A DNA stretch of 64,000 nucleotides from Tetrapyrgos nigripes. Taxonomy: Eukaryota > Basidiomycota > Agaricomycetes > Agaricales > Campanellaceae. Positions 6,824-57,996 of this stretch are shown in pieces. Position 1 is the stretch's first letter; each line of letters opens with the position of its first letter. A program made the position numbers and the translations under genes. The notes under the pieces are model-generated. The model worked only from the letters and a program-made list of their open reading frames with translations, did not search any database and had not been told where the DNA came from. Location of the stretch: NCBI GenBank assembly GCA_013368315.1, contig JAACJM010000079.1, positions 287,717-351,716 of the forward strand, read 5' to 3'.

Positions 6824-7186
6824 TTGACATAGCGGCATGACGCTCTGGAGACCTCTGAATTCGGATATACGTGATACTTCCGCCTCTTCCGACTCGAATC
6901 AACAATCGGATTATTAATTCGATCGTTGACCCGCCGTCCAGACAATTAGGAGTATGTCCAAGAGTGCTGAAGTTTCAGCAGATACTCCTGGAACATAAGA
7001 ACCCTCCGAGTCGTCACTGACAGGTCTAGAACCCGTCTTGCCTATCTGCCAGCCTGCCTCGCATCCGAAATTTTTCGAAACATTCGTAATCTTTACCTGA
7101 CAGTATATCAACTGTCCGTCTCTGCCCTTTCACGAATTTTTCTGAGCTTTACAGCCTTCTCTCAACTCATCTCCTCCTTTCTTTGA
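6824..7186 (+). repeat. Ngaro left direct repeat A1 (intronless form)
   Basis: Matches A2 at 11718-12184 from TTGACATAGCGG to CTCCTTTCTTTGA. It lacks two blocks present in A2, both starting with GT and ending with AG, and is joined precisely at the places where splicing would join them. It lies upstream of ORF1 and should contain the element's promoter and leader. Confidence 0.9.
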
Positions 7187-7239
7187 TACTCCCTCTTCGA
7201 GTCATCTTCTATATCATCTTTGTCTTCGGATCCTAGTCG

Positions 7240-8691
7240 ATGTCAGAGACCGCTCATGCTGCCGTTAATGAGGCTACAGAAGATCATGGGAATGAAGTAC
7301 CTTCTCGGGAAGGAAGCGTTGACAACGGGACTGAAATTCCTACGGACGAGGAACAAGAAGAACTACGGGCAATTGCCGAAGCGTGCGACTCGCTTGTTGA
7401 CGACTATCAAGCTCGTAAGATCACCCGTGGTTATCTGGAAGAAAGTCTTCATGTTACCGGAGCCAGTGACGATGCCATCAAGGACTATCTTCGAGATGTT
7501 GATTCCCACTTTCCCGCCGGTCGAGATGGACTTCGCAAGTATGTCAGAGGGGAGATTGATGAAAGAAGTGATGGAGATGATAGAGGAGAGGAATTGGGAT
7601 TGGACAGAGAGAAGGTCAAGCGAGCGTTTGCTGCGGCTGCCAACGCTGTGGAGAAAGGCGAGGCTTATATCAGAGCTAGGAGAGAGAGAGAACAAAGGGA
7701 AACTAGAAACGATGCGAGCATCACCGCCGAGCAATTTATTAATGATGCTCTTGGTGGATCCCGAATTCAACGTCCCACTGTCCCTGAAGTTTCAACGAGT
7801 CGTACCTCCACTTCCGAAGGACTTTCAGCCTCTCTCCTTACCGCGGCACCCCATCTTGGGGATTTGTTGTCCTTGTCCAAAGACCAACATCTTCGAGAAA
7901 CTCAGAATATCCGTATCGCCGTCTCCAAAGAGTCGAGCCTCAAAACCCTCGTTCAAATACTCGAATTCATGCCCCTCAAAGAACCAATCTCTCGCGGCAC
8001 TTGGGAGAAGATCATCAAAGACGAGTACGTCGACTTCGAGAAACTTCACGCCTCTTCGGATCCCTCCTATGACAGGTCTGACGAGTCTAAGGAGATTGTA
8101 CCTGGTTTCTTCATCTCTCGAAAAGATACAGCTACGAAGAAGAAGATTAGAACAGAGGCAGAGTGGTACAGGGTCTATGAGCAGTGGTCAGCAGGAGTGG
8201 AAGCGGTGTACAAACACAGAGCAGACGAACTCAGAGAATACAGATCTCTCATTTCGGAAATGTTCAAAGACTATCCTGATCACATTGACGTCGTCATCGC
8301 CGTTGATGCACACACAAGATTCCAGTATTCAAAGAAACCTTGCCATCTTGACGACAACCAACGTCTTGAACGTTTCCTCCATTCGAAGCTCAGTCAAACA
8401 AAGTCCTCGGGCCAATCCTCACTCACTACGTCATCCTCTAAACGCACGAACACTTCCGAATCGAATCCACGACCCACGAAGCAACGGCAATACGAGATCT
8501 GCCTCAACTGGAATAGGGGTGCTTGCGAGCAGACTCCTTGCGGTGTTGGGCGTAGGCACGGTGTCTGCAGCATTTGTGGAGGAGGACACAGGGCCAAGGA
8601 CCAGCCAGATTGCCTCAGCGAATATAATGCCAGAAGACAGCGAGCTCTCGCTAATAGACAAGCGAGTGCAGCTAGCACTAGGAGGGCCTAG
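7240..8691 (+). CDS. Ngaro ORF1, Gag-like protein with C-terminal Cys/His cluster (483 aa)
   Basis: Starts at the ATG 7240 (MSETAHAAVNEATEDHGNE). The product is strongly acidic at the N-terminus, then charged and alpha-helical in composition. A Cys/His-rich cluster near residues 420-465 (CLNWNRGACEQTPCG, then CSICGGGHRAKDQPDC) resembles the nucleic-acid-binding knuckle at the end of DIRS/Ngaro Gag-like ORFs. It is presumed to package element RNA. It is uninterrupted and overlaps ORF2 by 65 bp in another frame. The frame in which ORF2 is read is also open across all of ORF1 (from 7220), which I take as chance because that translation shows no family features. Confidence 0.8.
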   Translation: MSETAHAAVNEATEDHGNEVPSREGSVDNGTEIPTDEEQEELRAIAEACDSLVDDYQARKITRGYLEESLHVTGASDDAIKDYLRDVDSHFPAGRDGLRKYVRGEIDERSDGDDRGEELGLDREKVKRAFAAAANAVEKGEAYIRARREREQRETRNDASITAEQFINDALGGSRIQRPTVPEVSTSRTSTSEGLSASLLTAAPHLGDLLSLSKDQHLRETQNIRIAVSKESSLKTLVQILEFMPLKEPISRGTWEKIIKDEYVDFEKLHASSDPSYDRSDESKEIVPGFFISRKDTATKKKIRTEAEWYRVYEQWSAGVEAVYKHRADELREYRSLISEMFKDYPDHIDVVIAVDAHTRFQYSKKPCHLDDNQRLERFLHSKLSQTKSSGQSSLTTSSSKRTNTSESNPRPTKQRQYEICLNWNRGACEQTPCGVGRRHGVCSICGGGHRAKDQPDCLSEYNARRQRALANRQASAASTRRA

Positions 8692-10552
8692 GCGTGTATC
8701 TGATAATACCGCAAGTGGTGTTAAACGTAAAGCGCCACAGTCTTCACACCCCCGTTTTCGTCGAAACTTCGTCTGGTACGATTCAGAAGACGAGGTTGTT
8801 TCTCCTTCAGTCATCTTCTCTGAAACAGCGCCCCCTCTCCCATCTGTACCTGATAAACTACTCACAGATCCCGAGGTCGTTGCCGCACTTCACGCCCAAA
8901 GAGACTTTATTCAAGTAACTACTCCTTACAACGTGGATCGTTTAAGGAATTTGCTTTCACTACACCCTAACCAACCATTCGTGGAGTCAGTATTGAAGGG
9001 ATTAGTTGTGGGGTTTTGGCCATGTCATTCAGGAGAGTGGGAGGAAGGTTTTGACGCATTGATGGAAAACTACCACATGGAGGAACCAGATCTTAATGTT
9101 GTGAGGGCCTACAGAGATAAAGAAGTTGCCGAGGGGAGATGGTCACCCGCTATCCGTTCCTTTGAAAAAGGGATGAAGAGCTCACCCATGTTCGTAGTCT
9201 GGCAGGGAGAGCAGCGTGCCAAAGGTCGGGTTATCACCGACTTCACTGGTTCAGGAATCAATGCGGGTATCTCTCGGGAAGAAGCACACGTCAAATATGA
9301 TGACATGCGTTCTTTCGGTCTTGCGTTGCGACAAGCCAGGCTATCTCATCCAGGGAAAGAATTAATTCTCTTCAAAGACGATATCAAAGGGGCTTTTCCG
9401 ACTTTACCGGCTCATCCCATCTGGCAGCTTCGTCAGGTTGTGACGGTGGACGATGATCTTCATATTGTCAGGAGAATGGTCTTCGGAGGACGTTCCACCC
9501 CTCGTATATGGTGTGCTCTTTCTAGCTTGATATGCTGGATAGCTGTCAGACGTTTCGGGATACGAGGTCTTCATGTTTACATGGATGACTTCTTCGGATG
9601 GGATTTAGCAAGTAACTTGCTATATTTTCGGGGACGTCTGCGGCCTCAAAAACAAGTCCTTTTGCTCATCATTTGGGAATTCATCTCGTGCCCATTTGAA
9701 GACGAGAAACAGGATCATGGTCCCATGCTGAAGATCATCGGCTTTTGGGTAGACATCAATAAAGGCGTTCTCTCCCTGTCCCCATCATCCATCAAAGACT
9801 TAATAGCCAGAGTCTCTGAATTCTTATCGACCGAAGACCGCAAACATCCGCTCCGTTCCTGGTGGCGTCTCTCGGGACATCTGAATTGGTCACTGAACGT
9901 ATTGCCCTGGGCTAGACCCGCTCTTTCGGCACTATACGAGAAGATGCGTGGCAAATCTATTCCCCAAGCCAGCATTCCTATCAACGCCGCTGTTCGAGAA
10001 TCCCTCGAATGGTATCTATCCATTCTTCCATCAGCAATAGGGGTTAAATTCTTTGATGAGGGTACCTGGAGGGATGAAGAAGCCGATATGATATTCTGGA
10101 CCGATTCCTCACTGACCATCGCACTATCTTTCGTATTTGCGGGACACGGATACGTATACGAAATCAGACCACCCCCTTCCACAGTCAAAATCGACATCTT
10201 CTTTCTGGAATTAATCGCTATTCTATCAGCAATTGATTTCGCAGTCTCTCGACCCTCACCCCCTAAACGGATTCTGATTTGGTCTGACAGCCTAAATTCA
10301 GTATCGGCTTTCGATTCTCTTGGAACATCGGAACACATTCATACATGTGTGATGCTCGCCGTAGCAGGTCTGATCATTAGATCTGGAATCGACGTACGAG
10401 TACGTCATATTCCAGGCAAGGAGAACATCCGTGCCGACCTTCTCTCCCGGTTGCTGCTTAACGACTTCCATCGTCAATTTCCCGCATATCAAATCCACAC
10501 CTTCGAGCCTCCTCGCAATCTATTACCAGTACGATGGAGAGAGTCATTTTGA
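8627..10552 (+). CDS. Ngaro ORF2, reverse transcriptase - RNase H (641 aa)
   Basis: The likely start is ATG 8627, inside the end of ORF1; the frame is open further upstream, so translation could instead reach it by frameshift. The RT core runs from GRVITDFTGSGIN, through KDDIKGAFPTLPAHP (first catalytic Asp), to LHVYMDDFFGWD with the YxDD box intact at about residues 310-325. RNase H follows: MIFWTDSSL, LELIAILSAIDF and ILIWSDSLNSV supply D-E-D, and RHIPGKENIRADLLSR supplies the last Asp. There is no internal stop or frameshift. It copies element RNA to DNA. It ends by overlapping ORF3 by 19 bp. Confidence 0.9.
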   Translation: MPEDSELSLIDKRVQLALGGPRRVSDNTASGVKRKAPQSSHPRFRRNFVWYDSEDEVVSPSVIFSETAPPLPSVPDKLLTDPEVVAALHAQRDFIQVTTPYNVDRLRNLLSLHPNQPFVESVLKGLVVGFWPCHSGEWEEGFDALMENYHMEEPDLNVVRAYRDKEVAEGRWSPAIRSFEKGMKSSPMFVVWQGEQRAKGRVITDFTGSGINAGISREEAHVKYDDMRSFGLALRQARLSHPGKELILFKDDIKGAFPTLPAHPIWQLRQVVTVDDDLHIVRRMVFGGRSTPRIWCALSSLICWIAVRRFGIRGLHVYMDDFFGWDLASNLLYFRGRLRPQKQVLLLIIWEFISCPFEDEKQDHGPMLKIIGFWVDINKGVLSLSPSSIKDLIARVSEFLSTEDRKHPLRSWWRLSGHLNWSLNVLPWARPALSALYEKMRGKSIPQASIPINAAVRESLEWYLSILPSAIGVKFFDEGTWRDEEADMIFWTDSSLTIALSFVFAGHGYVYEIRPPPSTVKIDIFFLELIAILSAIDFAVSRPSPPKRILIWSDSLNSVSAFDSLGTSEHIHTCVMLAVAGLIIRSGIDVRVRHIPGKENIRADLLSRLLLNDFHRQFPAYQIHTFEPPRNLLPVRWRESF

Positions 10553-11532
10553 TGCGTCTTGGAGGTCTAGCAAAGCCACGAGTTCCTCGTCCTATCCAGC
10601 CACTTTCACTTATCGACGAACGAGTGTCATTTCTCCAGGCACACGCTATCGAAGAGTCAACATTGGCAGGCTACAAAACTGGGGCTAGAGACTATGTGAC
10701 GTTTTGCGTTAATCATCACCTTTCCCTTGAACCAACTATTTCCACTCTTTGTCGATAAATAGCTTACACATCCCAATTCATCGCTTCTGGTCCAGACTAT
10801 CTAACAGGCGCACATCACTTCCTTAGGGAAATATACCCTGAATTTGCCTCTAATCGAGCTTCACACGCAGTTCAAGCCACCATCATCGGGTCGAGAAAAT
10901 TTCGTGCTGACGCTGTACAACGCAAACTACCCCTCCGAACATCACATCTCGATGCATTCTATGATCTATATCTCGAGAACCCCACCTATGACAACCTTCT
11001 CTTCATCACTATCCTTTCTTGTATGTTCTACGGCGTTCACAGAGCTGGCGAACTCATCGCTAAACGTCACACCAATTCTCGCAAGATCATCAAGCGGTCA
11101 TCACTGAAATTCGAGAAGGATCGAGTCTCTTACAAACTACCTTATCACAAAGGAGACCGGTTCTATCGCGGCTCAGACATCTTATTAGGGAACCACAGCT
11201 CTGCCAACCCCGTATCTCTTCTACGCACATACTCGAAAATCAGAGACAGTATACACCACCACAAATTCCCTCTCTTTCTTAGAGAAGACGGCTCTCTCCC
11301 AACTCGTTCATGGTTTGAAGGGATTTTCTTCAAGCTAGTGAATAGGGAATATGGAGGTCACTCGGTACGCGCAGGAGGCGCTACTTACTACGCGAGCCTC
11401 GGACTTTCCGAATCAATCATCCAAGCGTTGGGACGGTGGTCTTCTGACGCTTGGCGTATCTATATTCGAGACCACGCAACAGTCCGGGCCGAAATACAAC
11501 TAGCTACGATACGCCACTCAGACAACACTTGA
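10534..11532 (+). pseudogene. Ngaro ORF3, tyrosine recombinase, broken by one nonsense codon
   Basis: A 333-codon frame from ATG 10534, open except for TAA at 10756-10758. The catalytic set is present: the first Arg in FYGVHRAGELI, HxxR in GHSVRAGGATYY, GRW, and a Tyr in AWRIYIRDHATV. The enzyme would integrate the circular DNA intermediate by strand exchange. A single C-to-T change (CAA to TAA) could explain the stop. As it stands only 74 residues would be made, so this copy is not autonomous unless the stop is read through. Confidence 0.87.
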
Positions 11533-11613
11533 CCTTCATCACTCCTCTGTCCATCACTTCTCTCTCATCATCATCATCATCATCAGCTCTCTCATCATCT
11601 CTGTCTCACCATA

Positions 11614-11717
11614 TACCCTTTCTCACTCGCCTCTCTCTAATCTCATGTTCGTTTTGGGGTGAAATATCCCCGGTTAGCCTATACCCTTGGAGTGAATCGT
11701 ATGGAAGATATTGGAGG
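11614..11717 (+). repeat. Ngaro direct repeat B1
   Basis: A 104 bp block matching 12363-12466, with a single C/T difference that I can see. It abuts A2 directly, as expected for split direct repeats. An (ATC)n microsatellite lies just upstream, near 11562-11585. Confidence 0.88.
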
Positions 11718-12184
11718 TTGACATAGCGGCATGACGCTCTGGAGACCTCTGAATTCGGATATACGTGATACTTCCGCCTCTTCCGACTCGAATCAACAAT
11801 CGGATTATTAATTCGATCGTTGACCCGCCGTCCAGACAATTAGGAGTATGTCCAAGAGTGCTGAAGTTTCAGCAGATACTCCTGGAACATAAGAACCCTC
11901 CGAGTCGTCACTGACAGGTCTAGAACCCGTCTTGCCTATCTGCCAGCCTGCCTCGCATCCGAAATTTTTCGGTATGTTATACTTATCTGCCAGCCTATTC
12001 ATCATATTAATGATTTCACCCTCAGAAACATTCGTGATCTTTACCTGACAGTATATCAACTGTCCGTCTCTGCCCTTTCACGAATTTTTCTGAGGTAACT
12101 ACTTGAATCTATTACAGTATTCAAGTACTTAACGAGCCTTTTAGCTTTACAGCCTTCTCTCAACTCATCTCCTCCTTTCTTTGA
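11718..12184 (+). repeat. Ngaro direct repeat A2, carrying two introns absent from A1
   Basis: A copy of A1 interrupted by 11972-12025 (54 bp, GTATGT to CTCAG) and 12095-12144 (50 bp, GTAACT to TTTAG). Both blocks have the size, borders and branch-like TTAAT or TTAAC near the 3' end seen in host introns of this window. The flanks join to give the A1 sequence exactly. Confidence 0.92.
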
Positions 12185-12362
12185 CCCACCCATCCCTCCC
12201 CTGACTACCATGTGCCTCTGTCACTTATTATTTCGTCTCTTCACGCCAAACGAATCGATAATCATCATCATGTGTTTGGATGTCTCCATCAATAATGCCT
12301 ATGTCGACGACTTAACAATTAACTACAATTGGACATTACATAGTATATACTACTTCTCATTG

Positions 12363-12466
12363 TACCCTTTCTCACTCGCCTCTCTCTAATCTCATGTTTG
12401 TTTTGGGGTGAAATATCCCCGGTTAGCCTATACCCTTGGAGTGAATCGTATGGAAGATATTGGAGG
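12363..12466 (+). repeat. Ngaro terminal direct repeat B2
   Basis: Right end of the element, equal in length to B1. Sequence after 12466 (CTCAAGTGCC) no longer matches A2 and is taken as flank. Confidence 0.87.
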
Positions 12467-14868: not shown

Positions 14869-15649
14869 TTACTTCAATACAGTACGTCTCGGATATCGAA
14901 TCAAAATGTAGTCATTGACTACATCAATGCTACGGTATGGTCTATTGAACAACCACAGATTATATTACCATACCAGTTCGTCACAGCAGCGGAAGCTGAG
15001 CCTTACCGTCGACAATATCCTGAACCTGTCTATGGTAGAGATTCAGGACAGAATCAAAACAGATTCGAGGCATTGCAGGAAGAAATTCCATTTGCACAGG
15101 AAAATCCTGAGGATCTGAGCGAACCGGATCCGAGTCACTCTAATGGTAATCATTCATCCTATCACAGTGATAAATATTCTGAGTGAACGGAAATCACCAA
15201 TCCGTTCCTGTAATAACGGATCATTGCATCACGTTAGAAACCAGAAAAAGGGCTCGTTTTGAATACAAACCTTCACAATTATCTGAAAAGGAATGTTTAG
15301 ATAATATTCTTCAAGTGTACGTTGAGCTAATCCACTACTACCTGCTGGATAAAACACCCGCTGGTAATAGTAGTACTGCTAAGACACTTCTACAATCGAT
15401 TCCGAAGCCAGATTATTACCACGGTCAGGATGACATTATAGTATTTGATGAGTGGATACGAAGCTTTATACGATGGATGAGTGTTGCAGATCAATGTGGA
15501 CCTGAATCCAGGTATAGTAGAAGTCAATGTGGATGGGTAGTGACTGCAACAGATATTACACAAGTCAATACCTTATCTGTATTTCTACGAAGCGAAGCTC
15601 GTCAGTGGTTTAATGATGAGATTGAACAAGTATCTACTTCAGCCTATTA

Positions 15650-16444
15650 TGGGGGAGACGCTCGTCCAAGCGAGGATGAAGAGGTGTAGTGGTCAAACCT
15701 CGGAGAACGAAGTAAGAGAGTAAGGGAGACGCGTCAACGTGACTAAACGTGTGTAGTAGAAAAGGAAAGGTGACTAAGGCTCAGGCTCGGGGAAGGCTCG
15801 GGGATGCTCTAGGATCAAGTAAAGGCTCGGTTTCGTTGGCTCAGGCTCGGCTTGAGTGCGGAATGACAGCAGGGAAAGAGAGATGAATTTACAATGCAGA
15901 TACAATGTACTTATACTCTTCAACCCGTCCCCAGTGCCCCAAGAGAAAACAGTAATATCACTAAATCGAGAAAATGTCTGAGTACAAGTTCTGTAAAATG
16001 ACGCAGGAATGAAGGATGGGAGGGATCGTAAGGAACTCGCAACAGATAGGGGAACGACTGAATAAGAAGAAGATGTCATAAAGGACGGCTTTGACAGCCG
16101 GGGCAAAAGAGACTGTGTGCAAAGATAAAAATACTTCCTCAAAGCCCTTTACCAGTTCACCCGTCTCCCTCTCGTCAGTGGACCATCAGACGTAGGTACA
16201 ACACATTGAGGGCCCCCAAACCCGTACACTTGCTCAAGGTGTAGATGTGAAGGACGGGATGGACAGAGAGGAATCAAGGATAGCCAGATCGGGACTAGTC
16301 GAGAAGCGAGGGAAGACGTAGATGAGAAAGAAGGGAGTTTGTACCTGGTTGGAGGTAACATGATAGAACAGAGAAGAATACATGTTAAGGGTGAAAATAA
16401 AGAAAGAGAAGGTTTCGATGGGAGGGGCAGATGTCCCTACCACA
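15650..16444 (-). repeat. Inner gypsy 3' LTR (left copy on plus strand)
   Basis: Aligned by eye to 24950-25743: 21 substitutions and one G-run indel. All 21 are transitions at CpG sites. No other type of difference was found. Confidence 0.92.
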
Positions 16445-24833: not shown

Positions 24834-24949
24834 GATATCAGATGAGGAGTGTGGTGGAGGAATAAGGAAGGGGAAGACAGAACCAGAGTAAGAATTTCAG
24901 TCCGAGATTTCGGAATACCAGATAAACCCCCTGCAGTGGTCACCAATTA

Positions 24950-25743
24950 TGGGGAGACGCTCGTCCAAGCGAGGACGAAGAGGTGTAGTGGTCGAACCTC
25001 GGAGAACAAAGTAAGAGAGTAAGGGAGACGCGTCAACGTGACTAAACGCGTGTAGTAGAAAAGGAAAGGTGACTAAGGCTCAGGCTCGGGGAAGGCTCGG
25101 GGATGCTCTAGGATCAAGTAAAGGCTCGGTTTCGTTGGCTCAGGCTCGGCTCGAGTGCGGAATGACAGCAGGGAAAGAGAGATGAATTTACAATGCAGAT
25201 ACAATGTACTTATACTCTTCAACCTGTCCCCAGTGCCCCAAGAGAAAACAGTAATATCACTAAATCGAGAAAATGTCTGAGTACAAGTTCTGTAAAATGA
25301 CGCAGGAATGAAGGATGGGAGGGATCGTAAGGAACTCGCAACAGATAGGGGAACGACTGAATAAGAAGAAGATGTCATAAAGGACGGCTTTGACAGCCAG
25401 GGCGAAAGAGACCGTGTGCAAAGATAAAAATACTTCCTCAAAGCCCTTTACCAGTTCACCCGTCTCCCTCTCGTCGGTGGACCATCAGACATAGGTACGA
25501 CACATCGAGGGCCCCCAAACCCGTACACTTGCTCAAGGTGTAGATGTGAAGGATGGGACAGACGGAGAGGAATCAAGGATAGCCGGATCGGGACTAGTCG
25601 AGAAGTGAGGGAAGACATAGACGAGAAAGAAGGGAGTTTGTACCTGGTTGGAGGTAACATGATAGAACAGAGAAGAATACATGTTAAGGGTGAAAATAAA
25701 GAAAGAGAAGGTTTCGATGGGAGGGGCAGATGTCCCTACCACA
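24950..25743 (-). repeat. Inner gypsy 5' LTR (right copy on plus strand)
   Basis: Pairs with 15650-16444. Next to it on the element's inner side the minus strand reads ATTGGTGACCACTGCAGG. This is in the primer-binding position, although a match to a specific tRNA 3' end is not asserted. Confidence 0.92.
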
Positions 25744-42250: not shown

Positions 42251-42708
42251 TGTCACGAACTGCTACAGTTCTTTGTCCTCCTTCTTCCACTTCATTATCG
42301 AACCCATTTTCTGATCACTCATCTATTGCATTTCCTTGATAAACCCTTTTAAACTTTATGTTACTGACTTTGAACCTTATAAAACCTGTCAAACTTTATA
42401 ATAACTATCAATCAATCTTCCATTCGATCAATCTTATCTTTTCCTATCTTTTCCCTACGTTTCTCCATTTTCTCCCATGTTTCTCCTACCTTGTTCCTAT
42501 CACTTATTCATTGTTTTTCTATATAAACCACTTGACATTCTAGTTAGTCCTTTAGTTCATTCACTTTGTCTCCACTCGGTACTAGTACTATGCAGTGTAG
42601 AGCATAGTCAGCTTACTCTTGCTCTCTATCTATCTTTCTATTTCTCAATCAACTTTGTCTCTGTGTGACTTGGGTGGTTTGTTATTGAGTGTACCAATGA
42701 CCTTGACA
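42251..42708 (+). repeat. Solo LTR (458 bp) inside DIRS-like RT
   Basis: Begins TGTCACGAACTGC and ends CCTTGACA, with TGTCA/TGACA inverted ends. Flanks are CCACC (42246-42250) and CCACT (42709-42713), a 5 bp target duplication with one mismatch. It is the same family as 57504-57996 in the opposite orientation. There is no internal retroelement sequence, so it arose by LTR-LTR recombination. Confidence 0.85.
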
Positions 42709-49589: not shown

Positions 49590-52500
49590 TATTGTACAGA
49601 ATGCTATTCGTTACCCGACTGCGGCTGGAGACGCTAGTGAAAGGAAAGTCCAGTTCGGTTCAGGGCCAAATTTTTTGAACACCGGACTGGACCTTCATTT
49701 GGTCTAAGTACATACAGTGTAGAGAGTTCTCTTTAGTTTTCCACTAATAGCGGACCCATCCCTGTTCTTTCGCCGTGAGACTCTACCATGTAAGGACTTC
49801 AACCTTACTTATTTGAGCAGCTCCAGGCTACTGCGCTTTCTTACGCCCTGCTCGGGAACCCGAGTCGGCCAGAGTTGGGCAGGGTTAGGGTCGGGACTCG
49901 GATTCGGCGAAAATTTGAATTGGGCTGGCTCGCGGGAAGGATTTTCTGCGGCAATTCTGCGGTCGATTCCTTGCCAAATCTGACCCTGACCTGACTCATC
50001 TCCCGAGCAGATCCTAAGTTACAGATATCCATACATGCTGTATCAGAGTGTATCAGTGATAGGGGCTTGGAGCACGCGGTCGCTTCAAGTTGACGCCCAA
50101 TTGACGCCGACTCGGAAAGTCCCAACGTTCCTAGAATCCTTCTCGTGTTAGAGCTTCCTCATGCTAGTCCAGTCACTAGTCACTCATCGCCCAGTGAAAA
50201 ATGACCATGGCGAGATCCGACTGGATATCGAAATTTCCGAGGAGATACGAGTAGTTAGTCCTGTTTTTTCGTCTAATCATCTTGCAGTGTCGTTCGAGAG
50301 AATTTCGGGACGAAGAGTATAGGGGAATCACGGGGAGCTATGCCGGTCAATCTTGGACAATATTATTTCCCGAACTTCTGGATGATTTTTTGCAGTTCCC
50401 GAACTTTCTAAGGTAATTTCTGGGTCTGCCGAACACTTTGAGCGTGATGTGTGACATGGAACTTTCAACTTCGAATCACCGAACACTTTTAGCGTGACGT
50501 GTGACATTGCCTATTTCCCCCGAACTTCTATTCCAACCCTGATTTGAAACTTGCGCGCGATGCAGTTTTCGCAAACTTTTACCTGTCTAACTGCAAAGTT
50601 GCTCCTGGAGGATTAAAGCACTGCAGCAGCTCAATTTTTTTGCTGCTTCAGATAGTTTTTCATCATATCTGTTTACCATTGCAATTATGCACCTTAGCAA
50701 TAGACCAATGAGGCTAGACAGCCAGGCCCTTAAAGGTATAGCCAGTTTGCACCATACTGGAGCAACACTTAAAGTGAAATTTGGATTCTGAACTGTAGTA
50801 TAGCATGGACACAGAGACAACTCAAACATCTAAGTTTGGAAAACATTCCCACAGATCAGCACCTAGTGGCCAAAGTGGTTGACCTACATTGCTATGAGGT
50901 CAACTGAAAATGGATTTGATTTATTATCATATATAGTTTATCTAATTGCATTTATAGCTCAAGAAGCTCTCAATGTGCAACCTTACAACCCCCAGTATAC
51001 CCACAAGCCAGCACTGATTTCAAGTCTAGAATGCTGCACACTAAGGTGCAGAGAACCACAATGGTGGATTAAAAATGAGTGAGAGTGAAATTTCTGTGTA
51101 ATAAATTCTTCATTTACACACTCATGAGTCATCATGCCCATGCTCAGACCACTGCGACCCTCAAGTGTGCAGGGGGTTGGTGTAGCTCAAAAGAAAGTAT
51201 TAGTTAGCTTTTTCAAACCAGCCCCTGATAGTGAAGTACACTCATAGGTGGGTAATTGGTATTCTGGCAGGGTTAAGGAAGTGGGTATATCTGAAACTTG
51301 ACCAAAAGTTTGTTTTCAGCCCTTGAGTCATTCCCTGAGCTGAACCAGTTATAAGAGGTTATAATTGCTACAACCTGTAACTGATCTCAGGTATAATATG
51401 TTAAGTATTTAGCTTGTTATTAACCAGTTATGACAGTATTTAATAGTATTTGGTTGGTGCCTTACTTGAGAGCTCTTTGAGATAGATAATGTTAGGATAA
51501 ACCAGTGATTGTTTAGCGCTAGAGCCTGGGTTGCATAGCCGACGTGTTCCTTGCCTGTGAATAGGGGCTTCACTTTCCCTTGAGTTGCACTGGCAGTACT
51601 AAGCGTGTTATAGTAGGAATTTGTTACAAAGTCTTTAAGATCTTTGTATAGTATATGGGGTGGATCTGCTACTATAACTGAAGCACTGTACACATTAACC
51701 ATAGAACTTAGAATAAGCATATCCTATTCATAAGTACTTAGCTTTATTGTACTGGCGCATACACTTAGTCCACTAGTGCTTTAACTAGCAGTTCAGGACT
51801 CACTCTAGTCCTTTATATACCAATTGAAGTGGTGAACCAGTTTTCTAACCACCAATTAATGTTTCTATATGCAAATTTGTATGGTGTATCATCGGGACTC
51901 ACTCTAGTCCTTTATATACCAATTGAAGTGGTGAACCAGCTTTCTAACCACCAAATAGTGTTTCTATATGTGAATTTTGTATGGCGTATCAATGTGTCAA
52001 GGTAGTGTGACTGAGGTTCCACATGGTGTGAACCTATTAATGGGAATGATCTCTATATACACAAGTGGCATTGGTTGAAGGAAACCCTGGACATATGGGT
52101 ATTGTTGGGTTTGCATGAATGAGGGGAAGGTGAGGAAAGGACTAGTTCATGACATATATGCACTTCCTTGGAATTTCCTTGAGGATTATACTCCTTGATA
52201 TCTGTGTTCTGACTCACTCCTAGAAAAATATGTCAATACATATTGCAAACAGTGAAGGGAATCAATGTACTCATTCCCGTCAAACACAATCTCAGAGATC
52301 TTGGTCCTTGGAACATAAAAGATACAGCATGAAATAGCTCACCTCACTCCTCCATGACTGTGAATACTATGTGTACCACTAGAGGACTTTCAATAGGTCT
52401 GATGACCTCTTGAGTCTGGGAATAGGGTTTGATCCTATGATGGGGTCAGGTGACCAGGCACTACTGGTATCAGGGCAGTTGAATGGATGCCCAGCTGATA

Positions 52501-57503: not shown

Positions 57504-57996
57504 TGTCAAGGTTGTTGGTACACTCAAATAACCACCCAAGTCACACAATCAAAGAGCAGATACAAGATAGATAGATTGAGAGAGAGATAGATGTGGAGAA
57601 ACGAGTAAGCTGACTAGGCTCTACACTGCGTAGTAGTAGTACGGAGTGGAGATGAAGTGAACAAACTAGGGAATCAGTTACAAAAGATCTCAAGTATATA
57701 TGAGAAATGTGAAGAGATGAGAAAAGTAAGTAAAAATAGAATGGTGCCATATGGTTGAGAAAGATAGGAAGATTGAATCAATCAAGTTAAAGATAGGAAG
57801 AATAGATAAGAGATAAGAAAGATGGGAAGATTGATCGACAGTTATTATAGAGCTTGACAGGTTTTATAAGGTTCAAAGTCAGAAATATAGGGTTAAGAGG
57901 TTTATTGAGGGAACGCAATGGACGAATGATCAGAGAAAGGTTTCAATAATGAAGTAAAAGAGGAAGGAGGACAAAGAACTGTAGCAGTTCATGACA
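57504..57996 (-). repeat. Solo LTR (493 bp) with perfect 5 bp target duplication
   Basis: Reverse-complement family member of 42251-42708, ending TGTCA and TGACA. It is flanked by TAGTC at 57499-57503 and again at 57997-58001. No internal region remains. Confidence 0.9.

Follow-up and report, generated by a model that had tools for sequence, protein, structure and literature searches.

Ngaro retrotransposons carry split direct repeats, arranged A1-[ORFs]-B1A2B2 in the cited descriptions of fungal (PMC3783388) and flagellate (PMC8547959) elements, and the relevant section of a further account describes the A1 and A2 repeats as identical (PMC9210276). For DIRS-1, the cited portion of PMC5633606 outlines a replication model, proposed and not fully proven, in which an internal complementary region templates the missing ends. 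Retention of introns through RNA copying is treated as special to Penelope elements in the cited section of PMC3846280. The main text of the fungal Ngaro study (PMC3783388) contains neither 'intron' nor 'splic', and introns within Ngaro repeats, or a spliced A1, are undescribed in the portions of the literature searched, a scope outside which the original Ngaro papers by Goodwin and Poulter fall.

Here we describe a 5.6-kb split-direct-repeat (Ngaro-type) retrotransposon in a 64,000-nucleotide stretch of the Tetrapyrgos nigripes genome, hereafter the window. Its parts follow the Ngaro order A1-ORFs-B1-A2-B2, with a 178-bp C spacer added before B2 (Table 1). The original prediction placed the element at 6824-12184; the start holds, but the match between B1 and B2 (99.0% identity over 104 bp) shows that B2 carries the element on to 12466. 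Six copies whose ends were compared share the termini TTGACATAG(C/T)GG...TTGGAGG, and their flank pairs are all different (6/6). No target-site duplication is visible by eye in any of the six, in keeping with the insertion without duplication that is typical of Ngaro elements. As expected for such elements, A1 and A2 represent a single sequence outside the introns; strict identity fails, because the A1 of the window element is intronless.

Table 1. Features of the retrotransposon, in window coordinates
Feature	Position	Strand	Evidence
Whole element, A1-ORF1-RT-YR-B1-A2-C-B2	6824..12466	+	Repeat layout and shared ends
A1 repeat, intronless	6824..7186	+	Repeat comparison with A2
Conserved short leader ORF/hairpin, exon 1, A1 copy	6954..6998	+	Alignment and folding
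Exon-exon junction in A1, marking the removed intron 1	7077..7078	+	Junction 20-mer, unique exact match
Scar of removed intron 2	7146..7147	+	Junction 26-mer, sole match in genome at <=3 mismatches
ORF1, 483 aa, called gag-like from its position alone	7240..8691	+	
Reverse transcriptase/RNase H ORF	8714..10552	+	YMDD-type motif by eye and protein relatives
Tyrosine recombinase ORF, in-frame TAA at 10756-10758	10552..11532	+	HxxR...Y by eye
B1 repeat	11614..11717	+	Repeat comparison
A2 repeat, carries both introns	11718..12184	+	Repeat comparison with A1
Conserved short leader ORF/hairpin, exon 1, A2 copy	11848..11892	+	Alignment and folding
Intron 1, GTATGT...TTAATG...CTCAG, 54 bp	11972..12025	+	
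Exon-2 hairpin 5' arm, across intron 1 acceptor (12025/12026)	12020..12037	+	Folding
Exon-2 hairpin 3' arm, across intron 2 donor (12094/12095)	12078..12095	+	Folding
Intron 2, GTAACT...CTTAAC...TTTTAG, 50 bp	12095..12144	+	
C spacer, 178 bp, separating A2 from B2	12185..12362	+	97-99% alike in C231, C527 and C209
B2 repeat	12363..12466	+	Repeat comparison

The reverse transcriptase (RT) frame has 216 protein relatives at E<=0.001, and 78 matches within its own genome. Among the best 120 of the 216 that were listed, one is labelled reverse transcriptase, one is labelled DNA/RNA polymerase and none carries a Ngaro label; the named organisms in this list, Lentinula, Mycena, Pleurotus and Tricholomella, are all basidiomycetes. 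The same frame gave no match to Pfam, to PDB sequences or to viral contigs. ORF1 matched no domain family above its cut-off in the Pfam and NCBIfam scans, and the tyrosine recombinase (YR) piece after the stop matches the phage integrase family of Pfam with an E value of 0.14, which falls short of the cut-off. The order of RT followed by YR is thus read from the YMDD and HxxR...Y motifs by eye, with no Pfam match for the RT and a sub-threshold one for the integrase. Pfam and NCBIfam reported no methyltransferase, DDE integrase or protease over the stretches scanned, in scans that also missed the RT. A minus-strand frame of 83 aa over the 54-bp block does exist as an ORF, and no sign was found that it is a gene.

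The element resembles described Ngaro elements in its repeat order, in the putative order of RT before YR, in the absence of a visible target duplication and, as far as scans that missed the RT can show, in reporting no methyltransferase. It differs from them, as far as the cited descriptions go, in that two conserved introns lie within the A repeat of its family, in the C spacer and in that one copy is spliced in A1. Elsewhere in the window, an 802-bp direct repeat (15643-16444 and 24943-25743) is 97% identical, an inverted pair of ~500 bp (42251-42708 and 57504-57996) is 72% alike and two tandem copies of ~100 bp (51793-51991) are 92% alike.

Removal of the two blocks from A2 leaves 363 bases, of which A1 matches 362, in agreement with the original prediction that A1 equals A2 less two GT...AG blocks and is joined exactly at their borders. 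The sole substitution outside the introns is an A at 7088 opposite a G at 12036; the A is found in none of the other repeats compared. The borders are GTATGT...CAG for the first block (54 bp) and GTAACT...TTAG for the second (50 bp). Each gap can be placed in two or three equivalent ways, one of which gives GT-AG ends in each case. Across the window, 0.39% of positions have GT...AG at a spacing of 54 bp and 0.34% at a spacing of 50 bp, and the joint chance of both borders is ~8e-5 (hand arithmetic, with equivalent placements counted).

Whether introns were gained in A2 or lost from A1 is decided by the other copies in the 98.46-Mb genome. A best-candidates search found at least 28 A repeats, a lower bound, and four full-length copies were read besides that in the window: C231 and C527, which are ~98.5% identical internally to the window copy, and C21 and C42, at ~80%. 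In C231, YR is interrupted by a stop and RT has lost 49 bp near its end. In C527, YR is likewise interrupted by a stop and has lost 38 bp, and RT contains a TGA. The RT of C21 is disrupted by an insertion, and for C42 a B2 was not located. Each of the four carries intron 1 in A1 as well as in A2, and intron 2 is present in 4/4 of their A1 repeats and in the 3/3 A2 repeats that are scoreable, C42 A2 diverging before intron 2. In C231 and in C527, with introns in both repeats, A1 and A2 differ at 5/467 sites each.

Of the 28 A repeats found, 24 are scoreable and 23 of these have intron 1; the sole exception is A1 of the window element. By class, the intron is present in 4/5 A1 repeats, 6/6 A2 repeats (C78, C231, C527, C21, C42 and C136) and 13/13 solo or unplaced repeats. 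The four unscoreable repeats either diverge before the acceptor (L023), are unalignable there (L029) or end ahead of the intron or within it (C214 and C44). Among 13 aligned distant repeats (70-75% identical), 11 have intron 1 with its acceptor. In a more distant element, C19, sequence taken from where the repeats should lie contained no recognisable A repeat.

Genome scans with the spliced junction sequences agree with this count. The intron 1 junction 20-mer has no exact match in the genome except in window A1; five two-mismatch matches lie elsewhere, none of them in an A repeat. The intron 2 junction 26-mer occurs nowhere but in window A1, allowing up to three mismatches; the scans thus covered the intron 1 junction patterns and, for intron 2, the junction as it stands in the window element. 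Seven inexact intron 1 junction matches outside the element (in C5, C57, C140, C154 and C345, and twice in C44) were considered as spliced A repeats and rejected: their likeness to an A repeat spans at most 34 bases around the pattern, so we regard them as chance matches.

On this comparison, the two-intron state is ancestral in both repeats, because sister copies carry the introns in A1 and A2 alike and repeats of ~70% identity carry them too. Of the repeats scored, window A1 alone is without both introns, and each is missing precisely from splice site to splice site, a pattern that argues for spliced RNA as its source. The proposal that A1 derives from spliced RNA and A2 from unspliced sequence is thereby supported. 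Scoring the sister copies did find introns in both repeats, but the pattern that had also been anticipated in them, an intronless A1 with an intron-bearing A2, occurs in 0 of the 4 other full-length copies. The finding is a single event, with one intronless A1 known among the repeats scored.

Several copies depart from the full-length layout. Many stand-alone A-(C)-B copies near which no ORF was found, in C209 (L033), C89 (L036), C258 (L037) and most of L016-L027, apparently either remain from events in which A1 recombined with A2 or are short non-autonomous elements. Splicing from an A1 donor to an A2 acceptor was considered as an origin for the solo A-C-B copies and rejected, as the scoreable ones retain intron 1. 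In L038 (C44:63500-73400), A2 is split by ~3.4 kb of other sequence and the interior of intron 1 joins the end of B2 directly.

The blocks have the traits of spliceosomal introns: GT-AG ends, a branch-like motif, conserved signals and precise loss in a copy derived from RNA. Across families, the intron 1 donor is GTATGT, GTACGT, GTACAT, GTGAGT or GTGTGT, its branch-like motif is TTAAT, TTGAT or CTGAC and its acceptor is constantly CTCAG followed by AAA. Intron 2 begins with GTAACT or GTAAGA (GC in C136) and has CTTAAC, CTAAC or CTGAC as a branch-like motif. The branch-point consensus is yTnAy, with which these motifs were compared by eye. Intron 1 of the window element agrees with that of four deep copies at just 27-31 of 52-53 sites, and GT and CTCAG are present in all four. 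Both introns thus appear to be old and functional, their splice signals kept while the remaining sequence diverges.

The two repeats also seem to evolve in concert. The window subfamily and the C21/C42 subfamily are separated by 82 fixed differences in A that are common to A1 and A2, 28 of them within introns, and no site within A separates all A1 from all A2 repeats (C42 A2 was omitted past position 344). Because the subfamily differences are fixed in both repeats alike, the two evolve as a pair from end to end, in introns as well as exons, and intron-bearing sequence has therefore been exchanged between them over the long run. Upstream of the introns, the window element has two variants that are common to its own A1 and A2 and absent from the 11 other repeats of the close and 80% families. 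Both are CpG transitions, one recurring in L020, L024 and L029 and the other in L027, so parallel mutation is possible; the shared variants lend weak to moderate support to a refilling of the start of A1 from A2. The idea that A2 serves as template for the whole of A1 at each replication is unsupported as a rule, given that C231 A2, not C231 A1, shares two variants of C209, although this counter-evidence is weak because the sites are CpG. In the close family (A repeats of C78, C231, C527 and C209), 12 of 15 variant sites are C-to-T or G-to-A changes at CpG, which suggests that cytosine methylation or a RIP-like process acts on the family.

RNA folding distinguishes the two states of the leader. 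The unspliced leader, as in A2, is predicted to fold with a z of -5.15 (0/100 shuffles as good), whereas the spliced leader, as in A1, has no excess structure (z -0.24; 77/200 shuffles). A main part of the predicted fold is an exon-2 hairpin that pairs the intron 1 acceptor with the intron 2 donor region (Table 1). This stem alone gives z values of -6.5, -6.3, -4.4 and -4.6 in four subfamilies, with 0/200 shuffles as good in each. In 22 repeats (14 distinct rows), 95.2% of its cells are paired, compared with 25-61% in slid controls; the 95.2% may be inflated because the repeats were gathered by a motif search that fixed the outer stem letters; the 22 are all 23 intron-bearing repeats minus C42 A2, where the end of the exon is absent. 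Two-sided changes occur at 3 pairs and 6 cells, mostly among related sequences. The stem values are reached by 3/500 shuffles for cells and 3/500 for the covariation score, and by 125/500 for the pair count and 339/500 for pair types, so that covariation offers modest support for the stem.

The splice sites lie within the predicted structure of the leader. The probability of pairing at the intron 1 acceptor is 0.97-0.99 in 20/20 distinct leaders, and ranges over 0.57-0.98 at the first donor and 0.60-0.92 at the second, against a leader average of 0.53-0.58. Whole leaders have z values of -0.8 to -5.1 (60 shuffles each), the weak ones (-0.8 to -2.1) being those of five deep copies, L017, L022, L025, L026 and L027. 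Among 1054 decoy exon-like segments from the window, end pairing reaches 0.9 in 1 and 0.5 in 41, compared with 0.99 in the real segment, whose overall fold is equalled or exceeded in stability by 56 of the 1054. The A at 7088 breaks a stem pair that is G-C in 22/22 repeats, which at this one site would fit relaxed constraint.

A further hairpin in exon 1 (z -3.0, -2.6 and -4.0 in three subfamilies) overlaps a short leader ORF. This ORF is a conserved frame of 14 codons, M[ST]KSAEVSAD-like, that doubles as the hairpin and whose stop is altered in L023. Between C42 and L016, a codon change tracks the base pairs, CCAGGAG/CTCCTGG becoming CCAAGAG/CTCTTGG. Upstream AUGs in intron 1 were also considered as a rationale for splicing, an idea dropped because the deep-family introns examined have no ATG.

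We hypothesize that the exon-2 hairpin is the best candidate for keeping the RNA unspliced, and hence for splicing control. The hairpin would not account for the splicing of A1 only, because A1 and A2 both have it.

The most probable origin of this element, in our assessment, is a sense RNA that had been spliced in its 5' copy of the leader but not in its 3' copy, combined with a DIRS-1-like refill and a hairpin that normally retains the introns. The transcript would start within A1, 5' of intron 1. Both introns of the 5' leader would be removed and the same introns retained in the 3' copy, A2, and reverse transcription of this part-spliced RNA would yield an A1 without introns and an A2 with both. 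The portion of A1 that precedes the transcription start would be refilled, in the manner of the DIRS-1 model, with the B1-A2 junction inside the element as template, and the resulting circle would be inserted by the tyrosine recombinase without target duplication. The usual template would be unspliced RNA, in which the conserved hairpin would tie up the intron 1 acceptor and the intron 2 donor and so, in all likelihood, leave enough of the RNA unspliced. Introns kept in nearly all scored repeats imply either that unspliced RNA is the usual template or that A2 supplies the introns anew; the spliced A1 implies that sense RNA served as a template at least once.

Other routes to the same repeats were weighed. 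Two RNAs, one spliced for A1 and one unspliced for A2, might have been joined by template switching in one particle. Retroelements are able to switch templates, and this route leaves A2 unspliced without calling for a single partly spliced RNA, but it requires two templates plus a switch, and both nearest copies are only ~98.5% identical to the window element; we consider it unlikely. A little less plausible still is that A1 had its introns when the element inserted and only afterwards underwent conversion by the intronless cDNA of a relative, as in classical cDNA-mediated intron loss. Such conversion would likewise involve spliced RNA and leave identical junctions, and the private substitution at 7088 could be taken to favour it. 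Yet the upstream part of A1 shares the two variants with the A2 of its own element (moderate evidence, the sites being CpG), the 53 bp that follow A1 are identical to C231, an extra event is needed and the junction scans of the genome found no donor. If such conversion did occur, the intron loss would be uninformative on how a new copy is built.

Routes that dispense with splicing fare far worse. Ordinary DNA deletions, or skipping by the reverse transcriptase, have some appeal in that small deletions are known in the sisters (49 bp in C231 and 38 bp in C527) and that the hairpin could induce skipping. However, no equivalent placement of either sister deletion gives GT-AG ends, which both window blocks have, and a skip at the hairpin would take out exon 2, which remains; loss of this kind is very improbable. 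Two precise insertions in A2, that is, intron gains, had been named as the alternative in the original prediction and are consistent with the window element in isolation, but are refuted by the introns in sister A1 and A2 repeats and in repeats of ~70% identity, leaving this reading with practically no probability.

The preferred reading, a part-spliced sense RNA, has partial counterparts in other retroelements. As in the DIRS-1 model in its cited form, the B1-A2 junction could act as the internal copy from which the missing ends of the RNA are refilled; DIRS-1 differs in having inverted repeats, and no comparable intron mark was seen in the sections cited, whereas the introns of the window element mark the part of A1 that derived from RNA. 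Penelope-like elements, as described in the cited section, similarly retain introns despite RNA-based copying, but belong to another RT class and integrate differently, and the A1 described here records a sense template at least once. If the hairpin restrains splicing, the arrangement would be analogous to the retroviral balance between spliced mRNA and unspliced genome, with the difference that the introns here lie inside the repeated end sequence and their removal affects the leader only.

A broader interpretation, which we offer tentatively and hold to be possible rather than probable, is that this Ngaro lineage relies on intron-bearing RNA to replicate, with the acceptor-donor stem as a switch between mRNA and genome. 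The window element would then be a natural retrotransposition event, marked by introns, in which the switch slipped, and A1 3' of the transcription start would derive from the 5' end of the RNA rather than from A2. Were such a switch to operate, the stem would hold both introns in, unspliced RNA would be packaged and copied, and A1 and A2 would stay homogenised, introns included.

Rebuilding of the ends in retrotransposons of the DIRS-1 order is modelled rather than shown (PMC5633606, for DIRS-1, in the part cited), and the intron pair in the repeat provides a natural marker, copy by copy, of which repeat came from processed RNA. The conserved and structured intron pair in the repeats of the lineage is a broader result than the single spliced A1: in this lineage, introns appear normally to survive RNA-based copying, and their splice sites sit in a conserved predicted RNA structure that is newly described here. 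A retroelement lineage thus retains introns over deep divergence despite copying through RNA, and the candidate RNA structure could explain how.
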